Below the pieces are notes generated by a model, which was given only the letters and a program-made list of their open reading frames with translations, searched no databases and was not told where the DNA came from. 37,164 nucleotides of DNA from Myxococcales bacterium. Its GTDB lineage: Bacteria; Myxococcota_A; Polyangia; Polyangiales; Houyiibacteriaceae. Within the stretch, counting starts at the first letter, position 1; the number at the start of each line of letters is the position of its first letter. Positions 29,461 to 37,164 of the stretch are shown here, in pieces. A program made the position numbers and the translations under genes. The stretch spans positions 1-37,164 of the forward strand of contig JAHBWH010000073.1 in the NCBI GenBank assembly GCA_019637115.1. The letters are read 5' to 3'.

Positions 29461-29537
29461 TTGGTGACCTGAACGGATGTGCTCATCCGTTTGGGGGATG
29501 GACAGGAAGGAGGCGACCGGTTTAGTCTGGTCGCCTC
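29461..29537 (+). repeat. Duplicated element T, copy 1 (after nrdJ)
   Basis: Matches 33871-33950 at roughly three quarters of positions by eye. Shared segments include GGATGTGCTC, GGGGAT-R-GACAGG and TAGTCT-R-GTCG. It contains an 8-bp hairpin (29472-29479 with 29484-29491, loop TGCT). In copy 2 the same stem survives through three G-U wobbles. Confidence 0.75.
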
Positions 29538-29540
29538 TTT
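29510..29540 (+). terminator. Intrinsic terminator after nrdJ
   Basis: GAGGCGACC (29510-29518) pairs perfectly with GGTCGCCTC (29529-29537) around a 10-base loop, followed by TTT. It lies 71 bp after the nrdJ stop and is the natural 3' end of that transcript. Confidence 0.8.
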
Positions 29541-29616
29541 GCGTTGGGGGTGGAAATGGGGCGGGGGCGATTCGTGAGTTTGGGAGCGCGGGGGCGTCTG
29601 TCGCCCCACGCCAGCG

Positions 29617-29752: not shown

Positions 29753-30557
29753 GCATCCACCGGCAGTCAAAGGCTCGCACTGTCCCCTATTGGTACTAGG
29801 TCGCCCGTGGAGCCGTAGAGATACTCACCCCGGCTCTCAACCGAATGGACTGCAAGATGTCACATCTAAGAATCAAAAGCTTCTCGGTAAGCGGTCTTTT
29901 TGGTCATTTTGATCATAAGATTTCCTTCAACACGGACGAACGAGTGACGATCATCCACGGTCCGAACGGAGTGGGAAAGACAACGATACTAAGCCTTATC
30001 GAGGCGGTATTTAGGCCGCAATCGCAGGCGTGGAGAGAGATTGAGTTTGCCGAGGTAGAGGTAAAGTTCCTTCGCCATGGGACCTTGACGATACATCGTG
30101 CAAAAACCAAACGTGGCGTCGGCGATGAGTTGAGGTACGCCTATACATACGGTGCACGAAAGTCCGCTTGCACTGTTGTCCTCAGATCGCAGCCAGACGT
30201 TATGGTAGCAATGATCGACAGGATGATTCCATGGATCGAACGTCTTGGACAGCGAGCCTGGCGGGACCGCGAAGTTGGGGATGTAGTCGGGGTCGATGAG
30301 ATCATCGACCGATATGGCGACCTATTGCCCGTTCAACACTCTGGAGTTGACACTAAAGCGAGCAAGGTTCCTGCAGAATGGCTGACGAGTCTTGTCGGCG
30401 GAACATCGGTACAGTTTGTTCGAACGCAGCGTCTTCGTATGGAGCTTAGGGCGGAGCGACATCCCAAACGAGGGCCGCGAGTTCGAGAAGAGAAGGAGCA
30501 TGCTGTCGAGCAACTGGCAGAGGACCTCGCTAGAAGAATCAGAGAGAGTTTACGCGA

Positions 30558-30566
30558 GTCGGGTTC
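30558..30566. repeat. Target site duplication, left
   Basis: GTCGGGTTC directly before the left end of the IS element; identical to 32021-32029. Confidence 0.92.
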
Positions 30567-32020
30567 GGGAATGTCCCGCTGTCTGCTGAAACTGAGCGGC
30601 GGCTTGCCCATCATCAAGCGGCATTCTTCTCGTGGTCAAGTTCTCGGCGCGGTGTCTGGTGCTTCTCGTCATGCTTCCGAAGTGCAGCGACGAGAGCCGG
30701 CATATCTCGGTAGCCCTTCAATCTCCGAAAGCCGGCTTCGGCCTCGGCGACTGCGGCCCCAACCCATCGCAAGATCATCGAGCCTCCCCGCCATCGCTTG
30801 ACTCGGCGTGCGAGGTGGCGCGCGTTGCCGTTGAAGTTCTCGATCGGGTTCGTGGTCGCGAACGAGCGCCCGAGGGTCGGCGAGAGGCCGAGGCCCATCA
30901 CGGTGAGCGTCTCGTCGAGTCCTTCGCGCAGCGATGCCGCTGCCCCGGGATGTTTCGACTCGAGGCTCGCCGCGAGGTTCAAGAGCAGCTTCTTGGCGTT
31001 GTCCGGCTTCCGGCTCTTGTACGCCTGACGCATCGCGTTCCGCGCGTGCGTGTGCCGCTCCTTCGGGAGGTGGCCGAGCACGTTGCGCACCTTGTGCACC
31101 TGGCAGCGCTGCACCAGCGCGCGCTTGCCGTAGGCATCACGGATCGCCGAGCGCAGCGCCTTGCTGCCGTCGATCACGAACAAGCGTGTTCGATCGGCGC
31201 GCAAGCCACGGTGCTGGAGGTCGCTCAGCAGCGCCGAGCACGCCGCGCCGTTCTCCGTCGCCCCCTCCCACAGCCCCAGAACGTGCTTGTTTCCCGACGA
31301 ATCGACGCCGAGTGCGACGAGTACGACGTCGTCCTGGAAGTGCAGCCCGTCGATGAATACGCCCACGAGATCGAGCGCTGAGAGATCCCGGCCGAGCCAC
31401 TCGTTCAGCCGCGCCTGCGTGGCCGCCACGAACTTCCGACTCACCGTGCTCTTGCTCGTCGAGCGCTCTCCCTCCGCGAGCTTCGCTGGCAGCGGCTCGA
31501 GCGAGCGCGCGTACTTTCGTGTCGAGACGCCGACGACCATCTGCTCGTATGCGCGATCACTCATCGGGTCCTTGGCCGCGAGCTGCTTCCACGTCTCGAG
31601 CGCGACCTCACCGTCGTGGCCGACGACACGCGGACGACGCACCTGAACCGTGCGACCGCCCAGCGTCAGGCGTCCTGCCGTCGAGCCGCCACGCGTCACC
31701 TGTCGCTCCTTCGAGTGCTTGTAGCGCTCCCCACACAGCTCGGTGCGCTCCTGCTCCAGCATCGACGCGATCGCCTGCATCCCGAGCGTGTGCACCAGCT
31801 CGCGCAGGTCACCGCGCACCAACTCCGCGAGCGGCAACACCAACTGCGCGAGCACGTTCCTGACCAACGACCCCTCGGCCCCTGCGACCGTGACCTCTTC
31901 CCGAGCCTTCGTCTTCCTGGCAGTCTTTCCCATGGCGGTTTCTCCTTTCAACGAACCCCGATCCTCTTCGGGGCGGAGCAAACCGCCACTCAAATTTTCA
32001 GCAGCCCCCGGGACATCCCC
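30567..32020. mobile_element. IS256-family insertion sequence, complete, 1454 bp
   Basis: Ends in imperfect 25-bp inverted repeats: 30567-30591 begins GGGAATGTCCCG and ends CTGCTGAAA; the complement of 31996-32020 begins GGGGATGTCCCG and ends the same. They match at 21 of 25 positions. A 9-bp target duplication (GTCGGGTTC) flanks it. It carries one intact transposase gene on the minus strand, opposite to the disrupted ATPase gene. The perfect duplication suggests a recent insertion. Confidence 0.93.
30614..31933 (-). CDS. IS256-family transposase (Mutator-like DDE)
   Basis: A 439-residue transposase that cuts and rejoins the IS ends. The catalytic residues are visible: D in VGVFIDGLHFQ, D in RLFVIDGSKALR, and E in NPIENFNGNARH, which belongs to the C-terminal Mutator-type block. 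The QRCQVHKVRNVLGHLP segment matches the conserved CxxH motif of the family. ATG 31933 is chosen, with AAAGGAGA upstream; an in-frame start at 31993 would lie near the IS end. The gene looks complete and has the high-GC style of the backbone rather than the island around it. Confidence 0.94.
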   Translation of the reverse strand: MGKTARKTKAREEVTVAGAEGSLVRNVLAQLVLPLAELVRGDLRELVHTLGMQAIASMLEQERTELCGERYKHSKERQVTRGGSTAGRLTLGGRTVQVRRPRVVGHDGEVALETWKQLAAKDPMSDRAYEQMVVGVSTRKYARSLEPLPAKLAEGERSTSKSTVSRKFVAATQARLNEWLGRDLSALDLVGVFIDGLHFQDDVVLVALGVDSSGNKHVLGLWEGATENGAACSALLSDLQHRGLRADRTRLFVIDGSKALRSAIRDAYGKRALVQRCQVHKVRNVLGHLPKERHTHARNAMRQAYKSRKPDNAKKLLLNLAASLESKHPGAAASLREGLDETLTVMGLGLSPTLGRSFATTNPIENFNGNARHLARRVKRWRGGSMILRWVGAAVAEAEAGFRRLKGYRDMPALVAALRKHDEKHQTPRRELDHEKNAA

Positions 32021-32029
32021 GTCGGGTTC
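32021..32029. repeat. Target site duplication, right
   Basis: GTCGGGTTC directly after the right end of the IS element; identical to 30558-30566. Confidence 0.92.
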
Positions 32030-32661
32030 TCTTGCGGCGTCTTTGGACAGGACTTTCCCTCACCGTCTCTTGGCTGGCAGACTACCGCAGGAAGCCACGG
32101 AACGCAGCATTCGCGCGAAGTATCAAGAGCAGCAGGTGCTGCGCGATCGACTCATGTCTGCTGGACTTATGGACGCGGGGGAGCAGGTACCGCTGCCCGG
32201 CACAGCGCTTGGGGAAAGCGAGCGCAAGGTGCTTTGGTACTATCTCAAAGATGTGAGCGAGAAGCTAAGTGTGTACATGAAGCTTCTTGAACGAGTGGAG
32301 CTGTTTAAGAGTATAATCGACGACAAGAGATTCTTGTATAAGCAGATGGAGATTGACAAGGACGCCGGATTTAGGTTCGTGAATAAGAACGGAAAATTCG
32401 TTCCACTTGGATCCCTTTCATCCGGTGAACAGCATGAGGTTGTGCTTACATATGAGCTTCTATTCGGCTCTCAGGATAAGCAGCTTGTGTTGATCGACGA
32501 GCCGGAGCTTTCGCTGCATGTGCTCTGGCAACACAAGTTCTTGGCAGACATGGGTAGGATTGCCAATCTGGCAAATATCGATTTTGTTATCGCGACGCAT
32601 TCTCCGTCGATTGTCGCAGACCGAGACGACTTGATGGTCGAGCTATCGGGTAGAGGTTGCG

Positions 32662-33516
32662 ATGCTTAGTGCGGTCAACGCCGCGCACGTTGCCGTCGAA
32701 GTAAAGATGATGAGGTCCGGGTTTGGTGGCGCCATTCTCGTCGTAGAGGCAGGGGCGGATAAGCGATTTTTTGACCGACTTATCGACGATAAGTGTCGGG
32801 TGCTTTGCGCACATGGGCGAGACAACGTAGTCGAAGCTTTAGAGAATCTTTCCTCGGATGGCGGCTGTCTCGGGTTCATCGACGCAGATTTCGATAGAGT
32901 GAATGGTGAATCTGCACATAGCAATCACAATGTAGTTAGCTCAGACTTTCATGATGTCGAGATGATGATGTTTATGTCTCCAGCGCTGGACAATCTCCTG
33001 AGAGAGTACGGCAGTGAGAATAAAATTGGAAAGATTGGTGGTGTTGATGAAGTCAGAGAACGGGTCTTAGCCGAATCGGCAAAGCTAGCCAAGATGAGGT
33101 ACCTTAGTCTTAAGAACGTCTGGGGACTAAAGTTCAGGGGAATGGACTACAAGAAGTTTACCGATAGGAGGACGCTTGTGGTGAACTGCCGGTCGGCAGC
33201 GGAGTATATCGTTCGGTTTTCGAGTTCCCCTGCGGTTGAACCGGGCGCCCTAGACCATGAATCATCCCGGGTCGATCTGGACTGTCACCTGGCCGACCTT
33301 TGCTGCGGGCATGATGTTACATCAATCCTGGGGATAGGTATTTGTTATCTCTTGGGATCTCAGGCTTCTTCCGTGGGTTGTCACGAAAGCGTTGAGCGGC
33401 TACTCAGGCTGTTGTATGAGAGTTGCTACTTTCCATTGACCGATGCATTTGCGCGTATTCGAGAGTGGGAGGCCTCGAGCGGTCGCGTTGTGCTTCGGCC
33501 GCTTCCCGGAGAGTAG
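32662..33516 (+). CDS. DUF4435 (TOPRIM-like) effector of a PARIS-like pair
   Basis: A 284-residue protein. The N-terminal half shows the DUF4435 pattern: LVVEAGADKRFF with the TOPRIM-type glutamate E29, AHGRDNVVEAL, GFIDADFDR (D74, D76, D78) and HDVEMMMF. In PARIS, the AriB protein of this family is a TOPRIM nuclease held by the ATPase ring and released when an anti-restriction protein is sensed, leading to tRNA cleavage and growth arrest. Here the start ATGCTTAG overlaps the ATPase stop by 8 bases. The reading frame is intact, but its partner is interrupted upstream, and the IS may cut its transcription. Other ATPase/DUF4435 pairs exist, so the PARIS label is by architecture. Confidence 0.82.
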   Translation: MLSAVNAAHVAVEVKMMRSGFGGAILVVEAGADKRFFDRLIDDKCRVLCAHGRDNVVEALENLSSDGGCLGFIDADFDRVNGESAHSNHNVVSSDFHDVEMMMFMSPALDNLLREYGSENKIGKIGGVDEVRERVLAESAKLAKMRYLSLKNVWGLKFRGMDYKKFTDRRTLVVNCRSAAEYIVRFSSSPAVEPGALDHESSRVDLDCHLADLCCGHDVTSILGIGICYLLGSQASSVGCHESVERLLRLLYESCYFPLTDAFARIREWEASSGRVVLRPLPGE

Positions 33517-33537
33517 TCCCTCTTCGGGGCGGGGTCC

Positions 33538-33870: not shown

Positions 33871-33950
33871 TTTGTGACGCGTTACTGAATGGATGTGCTC
33901 GTCTGTTCAGGGGATAGACAGGGAAAGCGGGAGCACTCTAGTCTAGTCGA
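33871..33950 (+). repeat. Duplicated element T, copy 2 (before cargo 2)
   Basis: Counterpart of 29461-29537. The hairpin (33888-33895 with 33900-33907, loop TGCT) has diverged at three positions, each leaving a G-U pair, so the stem is kept in RNA. The second, terminator hairpin of copy 1 is not preserved. It falls in the leader of the gene at 34023. Confidence 0.72.
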
Positions 33951-34022
33951 AGATTCGCGCTGGAGATGGCTGGAAACGAGTTTTCCGATCTTGAGTCGGA
34001 ACAAACGAAGGAGCGTACTTCA

Positions 34023-34967
34023 ATGAAGTCAGTGGTAGATAGTGTGATGAATGGCATGCATGTCACGAGCGTTGTGAGCATTGTGAGCGTTGTGTACTGC
34101 TTGTCCGCGACCGGTGTGGCCTTTGCCCAGCAGTTGGTCGATGGTGAGTTTAGCTTGACTGATGACCAAGATGGCTCCGATCAGCCTGACCCTTCCGGCG
34201 AACATGGTGGCCTGAGTGAGCGCGAAGTCGCGGATCAATCATCGCTGATTCTCACCGCTCAAGTGCTAGAGCAACTTGAGGTTGTCCGTCAGAATGTCCA
34301 GGCCGGGCAGGAGACCATCGAGCGAACTGCGCGCGAGAATCGAGAAACTGCAGAAAGGGCATCGCTTGACTCTGGGCGCTACGTCACCTTCGGACTCGCG
34401 AGCGGACTTCGGATATCGCCGCGTCCAGGGGTCGCATCGGCTGCGATCGATACTCAAACTGTGGTCGGAGAGAATGGTGATGTAACCCGTCGTACGGTTC
34501 GAGTCGACGATGCGTCTGTAGCTGACTTCTCAGCGGCGTTTGTTTTGCTTGTCTATCCTTGGCCGTATCGAGCCGACCCGGGAATGCGCCTGAAGTCCCC
34601 GTGGCGCGGGTTGAGTAGATTGGGTGTTGCTGCGTCGATATCGTTGATATCATTCTCGAGTTCTACGGAGTCCATAGTCGGTAATATTGAGGGTGGATTG
34701 GGTGTTTCCGTTCGCTTGATTGATCAGTTCCACTTTGCTGTTATGGCTGATTATTCTCGTGTGAGGGTGCCAAGGAGCGGCGTTGCCGACATGGGCGACG
34801 TGGGTTTTCGCGAGCCAACCGGAGAGGTGGTGGGTAGCACGTCAGTTTCAGATGATAGATTCTTTCGAACGATAGGGTCGTTCGCTTTGGCATTTAGGTT
34901 TGTATGGGCGTTCTCGGACCTTGGGCGTCCGGCTCCGAGCGACGCTGTCAAGCCCTCTGGAACGTAG
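34023..34967 (+). CDS. Exported protein of unknown function, possible outer-membrane barrel
   Basis: A 314-residue protein. The signal peptide (about residues 1-35) ends AFAQQ. A short acidic stretch (TDDQDGSDQPDPSGEHGG) is followed by a coiled coil (about residues 75-115: LEQLEVVRQNVQAGQETIER). A beta-rich C-terminal region then has alternating hydrophobic strands (FGLASGLRISPRP, LGVAASISLISF, FHFAVMADYSRVRV, FALAFRFVWAF), as in small outer-membrane barrels. ATG 34023 is chosen, with AAGGAG 9 bp upstream; the frame is open from 33966. GC is low compared with the backbone, and repeats lie on both sides. No family recognised. Confidence 0.7.
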   Translation: MKSVVDSVMNGMHVTSVVSIVSVVYCLSATGVAFAQQLVDGEFSLTDDQDGSDQPDPSGEHGGLSEREVADQSSLILTAQVLEQLEVVRQNVQAGQETIERTARENRETAERASLDSGRYVTFGLASGLRISPRPGVASAAIDTQTVVGENGDVTRRTVRVDDASVADFSAAFVLLVYPWPYRADPGMRLKSPWRGLSRLGVAASISLISFSSSTESIVGNIEGGLGVSVRLIDQFHFAVMADYSRVRVPRSGVADMGDVGFREPTGEVVGSTSVSDDRFFRTIGSFALAFRFVWAFSDLGRPAPSDAVKPSGT

Positions 34968-34970
34968 ATT

Positions 34971-35010
34971 CCGGGGCTTCGCCCCAGTCGGTGCTGGGTA
35001 AAGGGGGGAA
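34971..35010 (+). repeat. Island repeat, copy C
   Basis: CCGGGGCTTCGCCCCAGTCG followed by GTGCTGGGTAAAGGGGGGAA, starting 3 bp after the stop of the exported protein. The hairpin CCCAGT/GCTGGG keeps pairing through one wobble. Confidence 0.88.
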
Positions 35011-35250
35011 GATGCGCCCGGCTCGGGCTGTTGCAGTGCCGAGTCGTGAGCGTCGGCATCCGCCGCGGCGTCGACATTGGACATTGGACGCGACGTCGTC
35101 GGGCGCGCTGCGCGGGTCGGTCTTCGCGTGTCTTCGCGTCGACTGACGCGAGCGCGTCGATGTCGACGTCGGCCTTGAGGAGCGTCGCTGGTTCACGCGC
35201 CGCATTGCGCTCCGCGGCTTCTTGCTCGCGAGCTCGCCGCGCCCGCTGTC
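35011..35250 (-). pseudogene. Module 2: second remnant of the right-edge gene
   Basis: The minus-strand translation contains REQEAAERNAARE and, after a gap, ADVDIDALASVDA. The right-edge protein has AREAAERHAARHE and EPEIDAEALASLT in the same order. The rest is diverged, and no stop or start fits an intact gene. It sits exactly between repeat copies C and D. Together with the 733-bp gap 34968-35700 it holds no intact gene. Confidence 0.6.
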
Positions 35251-35290
35251 CCGGGGCTTCGCCCCCAGTCGGTACTGGGTAAAGGGGGAA
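35251..35290 (+). repeat. Island repeat, copy D
   Basis: Nearly identical to copies C and F. A perfect hairpin CCCAGT-CGGT-ACTGGG lies at 35264-35279, preceded by a GGGGC-TTC-GCCCC stem. Confidence 0.88.
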
Positions 35291-35489
35291 GGTAGTACTT
35301 GTTGGAACCAGGTCGCATGACGGTGTCAGAACTCAAGGCTGCTGAGTCGATGTTCCGCGGGTCTGGATGACTCTCAGATCAAGCGGGGCGGGCGCCGGTT
35401 GGATCGGTGCGGCGCAGGAGCGCTGTGTAGCCTCCACAGGACTCCAGAGAGTCGTCGGTTGAGGAGCAGGGAACGTGGAGGCGACGATG

Positions 35490-35574
35490 GGGTCTCGATC
35501 GCGCTCAAGCCTTCGGGACCCGGGTCGAGCTCGTGGGCCCTTGCTCGCCCTTGCTCCGAGCGCGATCCAGACCC
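35490..35574. other. 85-bp inverted-repeat structure upstream of cargo 3
   Basis: GGTCTCGATCGCGCTC (35491-35506) is inverted at 35558-35573 with 15 of 16 matches. The enclosed 51 bp contain a perfect GACCCGGGTC palindrome and GAGCTC and GGGCCC sites. A long, structured RNA or a recombination remnant is possible. Short open frames on both strands here are not convincing genes. Confidence 0.6.
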
Positions 35575-35700
35575 TGTTCCGCTCGGTTTAATGATGGCCT
35601 GCAGGGGTGTTCGAGGTAGACTCATCACGTCCGCCATAAAAACGGTCGGACGTCCTTCTTTTGTCGTTGAGTGACATGATTGTGTAATGGAGCATAGACC

Positions 35701-36165
35701 ATGAAGCTAGACGCAGCCAACCTGAAGCTATTCTTCCCAGAGAGCCGTGCCAGAACTGCGAAGATGGAGTTCGATCCAAGGAGGGCCTTCGAGAAGTATC
35801 TTCGCGAGGCCATGGAGGCGCTGCGGTGGGATGAGGAGCTCTTGCAGTATCTTCGTTCCCACCGTGTACCGTTCGCCTGGAGATCTCGACTAAGAGCGTC
35901 CGCTGGGCAGACGTATGCAGACTGTGTGAACGATATCATTGAATTCGATCAGCTTCGGCAGAATGCGGCGGGGCACGCGGTTGTCCGAATTGTCACTCTC
36001 AAAGAGATTGCTGCTAGACGCGCACGAGTAGCAACGGAGCAGCTAAGGTTGCTACGCGACTCGTCGCCGCCGGTGATCTGCGGTCCGGCGGAGCTTTTTC
36101 ATCTCGCAGCAGTCTTGTCTGCCGTCGTTCAGATTGTCTTATATCTTATGGTTGTTGTGCGATGA
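35701..36165 (+). CDS. Hypothetical protein with C-terminal membrane anchor
   Basis: A 154-residue protein. The first 125 residues are soluble, helical and charged (AFEKYLREAMEALRWDEELL, IVTLKEIAARRARVATEQLR). One membrane helix follows at about 130-152 (LFHLAAVLSAVVQIVLYLMVVV), placing the bulk in the cytoplasm if tail-anchored. ATG 35701, with GGAG about 10 bp upstream. Its TGA overlaps the next start (ATGA at 36162-36165), so the two are coupled. GC is low for the window. No family recognised. Confidence 0.72.
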   Translation: MKLDAANLKLFFPESRARTAKMEFDPRRAFEKYLREAMEALRWDEELLQYLRSHRVPFAWRSRLRASAGQTYADCVNDIIEFDQLRQNAAGHAVVRIVTLKEIAARRARVATEQLRLLRDSSPPVICGPAELFHLAAVLSAVVQIVLYLMVVVR

Positions 36166-36539
36166 TCAAAATTGCGTTGCTGGCGTCGGTGGTGGTTGCG
36201 CTGTTGTGTGTTGCGTATTTGTTTCGCAAAACAAAGTCGCTCGTAAGTGGGACGACGCATGGTTGGCCGAGGTTCTCTTTGTACGCGACGAAGGTCGTGA
36301 TTGCAGTAATGGGGTGTTTGTGCGCGGCTGCAAACGTCGCTGTCGCACTTGTTTCGGGCGATTGCTCGGGGATTGAGGCGATGTTTTCGATGGCTACAGT
36401 TGTCTGCGTTTGTCTGGTTGGTGCTCTCGTGGTCGTGGTTTCGGCGCCAGTGCAGCTTGCTGCGTTGCTTGCCGAAGGTGGCCTCAAGAGTGTGCCCTCC
36501 GCTGACGTTCAGCCCGGATCGAGAGATGACATGCCGTGA
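36162..36539 (+). CDS. Hypothetical small membrane protein
   Basis: A 125-residue protein with three predicted membrane helices (about residues 2-20, 42-65 and 72-100) and a short soluble tail. The first helix may also act as a signal. It contains several cysteines in and near the helices (residues 16, 52, 54 and around 68-83). It is coupled to the preceding gene by a 4-base ATGA overlap, so the two products probably form a membrane complex. No family recognised. Repeat copy E begins 5 bp after the stop. Confidence 0.7.
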   Translation: MIKIALLASVVVALLCVAYLFRKTKSLVSGTTHGWPRFSLYATKVVIAVMGCLCAAANVAVALVSGDCSGIEAMFSMATVVCVCLVGALVVVVSAPVQLAALLAEGGLKSVPSADVQPGSRDDMP

Positions 36540-36544
36540 CGTCC

Positions 36545-36592
36545 CCCGGGGCTTCAGTAGTAGTCGGTACCTGGTACCAGGCGGAAGGGGGC
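36545..36592 (+). repeat. Island repeat, copy E (GGTACC variant)
   Basis: CCGGGGCTTCAGTAGTAGTC, then GGTACCTGGTACCAGGCGG, then AAGGGGG. It shares the GGTACCAGGCGGAAGGGGGC stretch and the following GCCGGCGG block with copy G. It contains the perfect palindrome CCTGGTACCAGG. Confidence 0.8.
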
Positions 36593-36702: not shown

Positions 36703-36737
36703 GTAGCAGTCGGTACCGGGTACCAGGCGGAAGGGGG
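36703..36737 (+). repeat. Island repeat, copy G (GGTACC variant)
   Basis: AGCAGTCGGTACCGGGTACC, then AGGCGGAAGGGGG. The stretch after it (GCCGGCGGACCGCCGGGG) matches the one after copy E. Confidence 0.8.
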
Positions 36738-36881
36738 CAAGCCGGCGGACCGCCGGGGTCGCGGCGGGTCGTCGGAGGGCCTCGAGGGGTAGGGCGGCCC
36801 GCGAATCCGTGGTGACGGACGGAGCGAGGCCCGGCTCAGGCTGGTGCTGGGCCGGGCAGCGCGGCGGGCGCGCGTCTGCGG

Positions 36882-37164
36882 TCAGTCGGGTGGGTCGCCG
36901 CTCCGGCGGCCGCGGTCGGTCGACGAGGGGGCGGCCTCGGCCTCGGCGTGGGTGGTGGGCGATGCGTCGGGCTCGGGGGTCGGCTCGAGATCCTCGGGCT
37001 GGCGTCGGGAGCCGGACATCGGCGTGAGCGACGCGAGCGCTTCGGCGTCGATCTCGGGTTCGAGGGCGAGCGCGTGGTGGGCCGATACCGGCTTGGGGCC
37101 GCGGTGGGTGGTTTCGTGGCGCGCCGCGTGGCGCTCGGCGGCCTCTCGGGCTCGCGCGCTCCGC
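36882..37164 (-). CDS. C-terminal part of an unknown gene running off the right edge (module 3)
   Basis: The minus strand is open from the window edge to TGA at 36882-36884 and gives 93 residues, with G/C-rich third positions like the backbone. It begins RSARAREAAERHAARHE, continues ALEPEIDAEALASLTPMSGS and ends in a low-complexity acidic, proline-rich and then basic tail. The two best-kept segments recur in the module 2 remnant at 35011-35250, which supports it as real coding sequence. The family is not recognised from this tail; a recombinase or transposase would fit the context but is not shown. Confidence 0.6.
   Translation of the reverse strand, partial: RSARAREAAERHAARHETTHRGPKPVSAHHALALEPEIDAEALASLTPMSGSRRQPEDLEPTPEPDASPTTHAEAEAAPSSTDRGRRSGDPPD

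Follow-up and report, generated by a model that had tools for sequence, protein, structure and literature searches.

The locus raises two questions: whether two overlapping reading frames near the end of a contig, P1 and P2, are genes that work together, and whether their position near a PARIS-like block says what they do. The window, that is, the whole stretch of DNA that was analysed (37,164 nucleotides, contig C406, 1-37164), belongs to a genome of 8.88 Mb in 434 contigs, in which both P1 and P2 are single-copy. The earlier note had read the frames as a tail-anchored 154-residue protein followed by a three-span 125-residue protein, and the open reading frames and the hydropathy profiles, with one C-terminal hydrophobic region in the former and three regions in the latter, agree with this description.

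P1 (35701-36165, + strand) is a complete frame of 154 codons that ends in TGA. Its ATG at 35701 is the earliest start 3' of an in-frame TAG lying two codons upstream, and a Shine-Dalgarno-like GGAG (35689-35692, + strand) stands 8 nt 5' of that ATG. A sigma-70-like promoter was sought upstream of the pair and none was found. The sole strong hydrophobic region of P1 is C-terminal, with its peak at residues 135-153. Residues 1-127 are predicted to be an all-helical cytosolic part, followed by a membrane helix at about 129-153; the AlphaFold single-sequence model of P1 is poor (mean pLDDT 48.7). P2 (36162-36539, + strand) is a complete frame of 125 codons beginning at 36162 with the earliest ATG, GTG or TTG within its open frame. 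Its three membrane regions (2-20, 45-63 and 75-93) are joined by a basic first loop (+4) and a short acidic second loop (-2). At least three hydrophobic segments were also observed in 72 of 1000 shuffled P2 genes, which makes hydropathy alone the weaker evidence. The AlphaFold single-sequence model of P2 was poor as well (mean pLDDT 63.7), and a fold search with it gave no match at E ≤ 0.001 in the PDB or BFVD; the row that looked best, a protein of Pithovirus in BFVD (prob 0.97, E 0.66), was put down to a generic resemblance between helical bundles and rejected.

The stop TGA of P1 and the start ATG of P2 share the four nucleotides ATGA (36162-36165, + strand), as claimed before. No Shine-Dalgarno-like run was found before the P2 ATG, and this, together with the overlap, is in keeping with translational coupling. 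The frames themselves were scored for codon usage with a model built from the remaining low-GC genes nearby (the ariA parts, ariB and P3). P1 scored 0.19 bits per codon (shuffle mean -0.106) and P2 0.005 (shuffle mean -0.218), values that were reached by none of 2000 mononucleotide shuffles in either case and that correspond to z of about 5.7 and 3.5, derived from the shuffle means and standard deviations. For both genes the remaining five frames scored below the annotated one. Leave-one-out controls gave -0.004 for ariB and 0.048 for P3, so that P1 and P2 are at the level of these accepted neighbours. A single long frame is common in DNA of this kind, since an ORF of at least 150 aa was present in 320 of 2000 dinucleotide shuffles of 35575-36556; an overlapping (0-30 nt) same-strand pair with each member at least 120 aa appeared in 3 of 2000. 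The pair also joins a soluble partner to a membrane protein within a single operon, but this is a weak feature, common to many pairs that are unrelated. We are confident that P1-P2 is a real orphan cargo pair.

The composition of the pair points to a foreign origin, and here too the earlier note, which had placed the pair as cargo in an island, was borne out. P1 and P2 have a GC content of 55-56% and a GC3 of 0.59-0.61, resembling ariA, ariB and P3 and unlike the host ribonucleotide reductase (RNR) gene (68%, GC3 0.96). The island codon model was preferred over the host model by 0.98 (P1) and 0.95 (P2) bits per codon, where the host model was trained on one gene, RNR, and the comparison value of -1.03 comes from half of RNR, itself in the training set. 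An empty site downstream of RNR was sought in 12 of 15 relatives having an RNR match; what follows the gene varies from genome to genome and no clean site was found, and in the same search three contigs (G046, G025 and G016) stop within about 0.8 to 1.5 kb of the RNR gene. We read P1-P2 as a horizontal acquisition, carried as cargo by a low-GC stretch that is rich in IS elements and follows the RNR gene of the host. A direct repeat of 85 nt, 71% identical, was also observed at 29469-29553, after the RNR gene, and at 33885-33969, before P3; it could mark an insertion boundary.

The same stretch carries the PARIS-like block, whose identity is supported by profile. An ariA-like AAA ATPase gene (29845-32669, + strand), of which both halves match Pfam and PADLOC models, adjoins a complete ariB-like DUF4435 gene (32662-33516, + strand; Pfam and PADLOC models), so that an AAA_15/AAA_21 ATPase gene stands next to a DUF4435 gene, as in PARIS. 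The ATPase gene is not intact, a qualification that the earlier note had lacked: it is split by an insertion sequence of 1454 bp (30567-32020, - strand) with a Mutator-type Transposase_mut gene (30614-31993, - strand), which we take to be IS256-like. The ends of the insertion are imperfect terminal inverted repeats, and a 9-bp direct repeat, GTCGGGTTC, flanks it on either side as a target duplication. Because the two ariA-like halves are in one frame across the insertion, the insertion is the visible disruption of the gene. The pair had been placed beside this block. The PARIS genes are indeed near, but "beside" is loose, as 2184 bp separate ariB from P1, filled by P3 and by repeat and IS debris.

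P3 (33966-34967, + strand) is a neighbouring cargo gene, an orphan of 333 aa with a hydrophobic, signal-like N-terminal segment; its true start is probably codon 20 (34023). No relatives of P3 were found in the order, in plasmids, in phages or in IMG/VR. Between the P3 gene and P1 lies repeat debris (34962-35289) with two copies of a 47-nt repeat, which occurs at 33528, 33815, 34962, 35243 and 36607, and the sequence between the two copies has weak similarity to the tail of a multi-copy gene. It is followed by the remnant of a repeated element (35349-35574) with 78% identity to contigs C6 and C390 of the same genome, both of which carry IS transposase genes of the IS66 or IS21 type (IstB). On one of these two contigs (L073, 3439-5436 and 5766-5981) the repeated element stands upstream of a further AAA ATPase gene of low GC, which matches AriA, mad3 and GajA-type models, with an AriA model as its best match in PADLOC and an IS66 gene nearby.

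Downstream of P2, repeat debris leads into the 3' part of the multi-copy gene (- strand) and then to the contig end (36557-37164). Positions 36705-37164 are 95% identical to L020 3968-4427 on another contig, where they correspond to the 3' part of a frame of 526 aa (L020 2670-4250) that has no Pfam match. This gene, which by its resemblance may be REP-associated and transposase-like, has further copies elsewhere, three of them near contig ends, and its decayed tails also occur between the cargo genes. The contig ends 625 bp past P2 inside the multi-copy sequence, which would explain the assembly break at the window end, and a gene downstream of P2 could thus be hidden from view.

The earlier note had seen no known family in either protein, and our searches of genomes, IMG/VR, plasmids, phages, Pfam, PADLOC, NCBIfam, PHROGs and the PDB gave the same result; "unrecognised" here means orphan. 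No credible relative of P1 was found in the order (183 genomes), and none of P1 or P2 in a phylum draw (377) or in the class (317), where the sole match of each at E ≤ 0.001 was the genome itself. Neither had a credible relative in GTDB species contigs, scanned with peptide patterns, or in IMG/VR, plasmids or phages; scans by pattern detect close relatives only. Weak genome matches at E 0.0008-0.01 per genome were rejected as chance (P1, 7 foreign among 377 in the phylum draw and 2 foreign among 183 in the order; P2, 6 foreign among 377), since about that many would be expected by chance from 377 genomes. Those of P1 all lie inside ORFs of 207-647 aa, and none of the foreign genomes matched both proteins.

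Against Pfam, PADLOC, NCBIfam, PHROGs and PDB sequences nothing rose above noise. Neither P1 nor P2 fits a model of a catalogued anti-phage system in PADLOC-DB 2.0.0, with 0 families at E up to 1, the AriA and AriB models included. For phage lysis (holin-type) families, PHROGs gave one row for P1 (phrog_32687, E 0.13, rejected) and none for P2, and the phage records gave none. Other candidates were rejected likewise: for P1 an inactivated HAD model (a chance-level score of 15.8 bits, where the cut-off is 240), COX1 and DUF6197 for P2 (sub-threshold in single-sequence profile scans), two oxidase/transferase models for P2 (sub-threshold in a profile scan) and two PDB sequence rows for P1 (E 0.21 and 0.61; none for P2). 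The rejected profile matches are far under the curated cut-offs wherever a cut-off exists. No RNA family reached its gathering threshold in the window, and a literature search returned nothing on the pair. As P1 and P2 are without homologues, the comparative evidence for function, namely conserved residues, recurrent neighbourhood and selection, is removed.

Two known systems come closest. PARIS (the AriA AAA ATPase with AriB, a DUF4435 Toprim nuclease) lies 2.2 kb upstream, within the same stretch of low GC, but neither P1 nor P2 matches any PARIS protein, and no P1-P2-like pair is annotated next to ariAB in the two loci examined of 15 plasmid ariB-like loci. The other is an anti-T7 pair of a HAD-like hydrolase and a transmembrane protein, one of the P4-satellite systems reported in PMC9122126. 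By that description it is alike in having two genes, one soluble and one membrane, in a variable locus that also harbors PARIS; it differs in that P1 is no HAD protein and has a membrane helix of its own. According to the same paper, the membrane proteins of anti-phage systems already known are believed to act as effectors of cell suicide (PMC9122126).

The best overall explanation, to which we give a probability of roughly 0.4, is a co-translated, horizontally acquired cargo pair in which a membrane effector with a cytosolic partner is the leading proposed mechanism. The tail helix of P1 would enter the inner membrane and leave the helical body in the cytosol, the three helices of P2 would be inserted in the membrane, and coupled translation would supply the two in similar amounts. 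That they form one membrane complex seems to us somewhat better than an even bet. P1 might then serve in the cytosol as sensor or restraint, and P2, in the membrane, would act on the bilayer once released, as happens in other small accessory systems that pair a soluble with a membrane protein. The suggestion that such pairs are often phage-defence or toxin systems found no support for this one: no defence model was matched, no relative offered a neighbourhood, and PARIS is interrupted and apart from the pair. The tie to defence is position alone, weaker than the earlier note had it, and a putative defence or toxin-type membrane effector is doubtful. Less likely still is that P1-P2 represents the first example of a so far unrecorded kind of two-protein membrane unit for defence or toxicity, in which a tail-anchored sensor in the cytosol would restrain a three-helix membrane effector.

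Other explanations were weighed, each of them improbable. P1, P2 and P3, whose signal-like N-terminus would suit an outer-membrane protein, might form one envelope-spanning accessory complex that does not serve defence. All three are orphans on the same strand, with a GC of 55-56% and membrane or export features, but P3 and P1 are 733 bp apart, with repeat and IS debris in between, and no relative carries the three together. A toxin-antitoxin type of pair, with P2 as putative membrane toxin and P1 as its antagonist, retained in the mobile stretch by addiction, is compatible with the size, gene order, coupling and mobile context. Here P1 is itself membrane-anchored, which is unusual for an antitoxin, and neither protein matches a family, so that we consider this type unlikely. 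The frames could lastly be non-functional, either what is left of acquired DNA or young genes that are not under selection, as the lack of relatives in any collection searched, the broken ariA and the flanking IS debris would allow, but both are intact, their codon statistics equal those of the recognised neighbour genes and a Shine-Dalgarno-like site is present, which leaves low odds for this reading.

P1-P2 is best read as an ordinary orphan cargo pair that probably makes an inner-membrane two-protein unit, and as it stands it is one among the many pairs of this kind that mobile DNA carries. It serves as a caution that nearness to a PARIS block, broken here, is weak evidence of defence. Should P1-P2 prove to have a phenotype, it would open the way to a family absent from every library used here.
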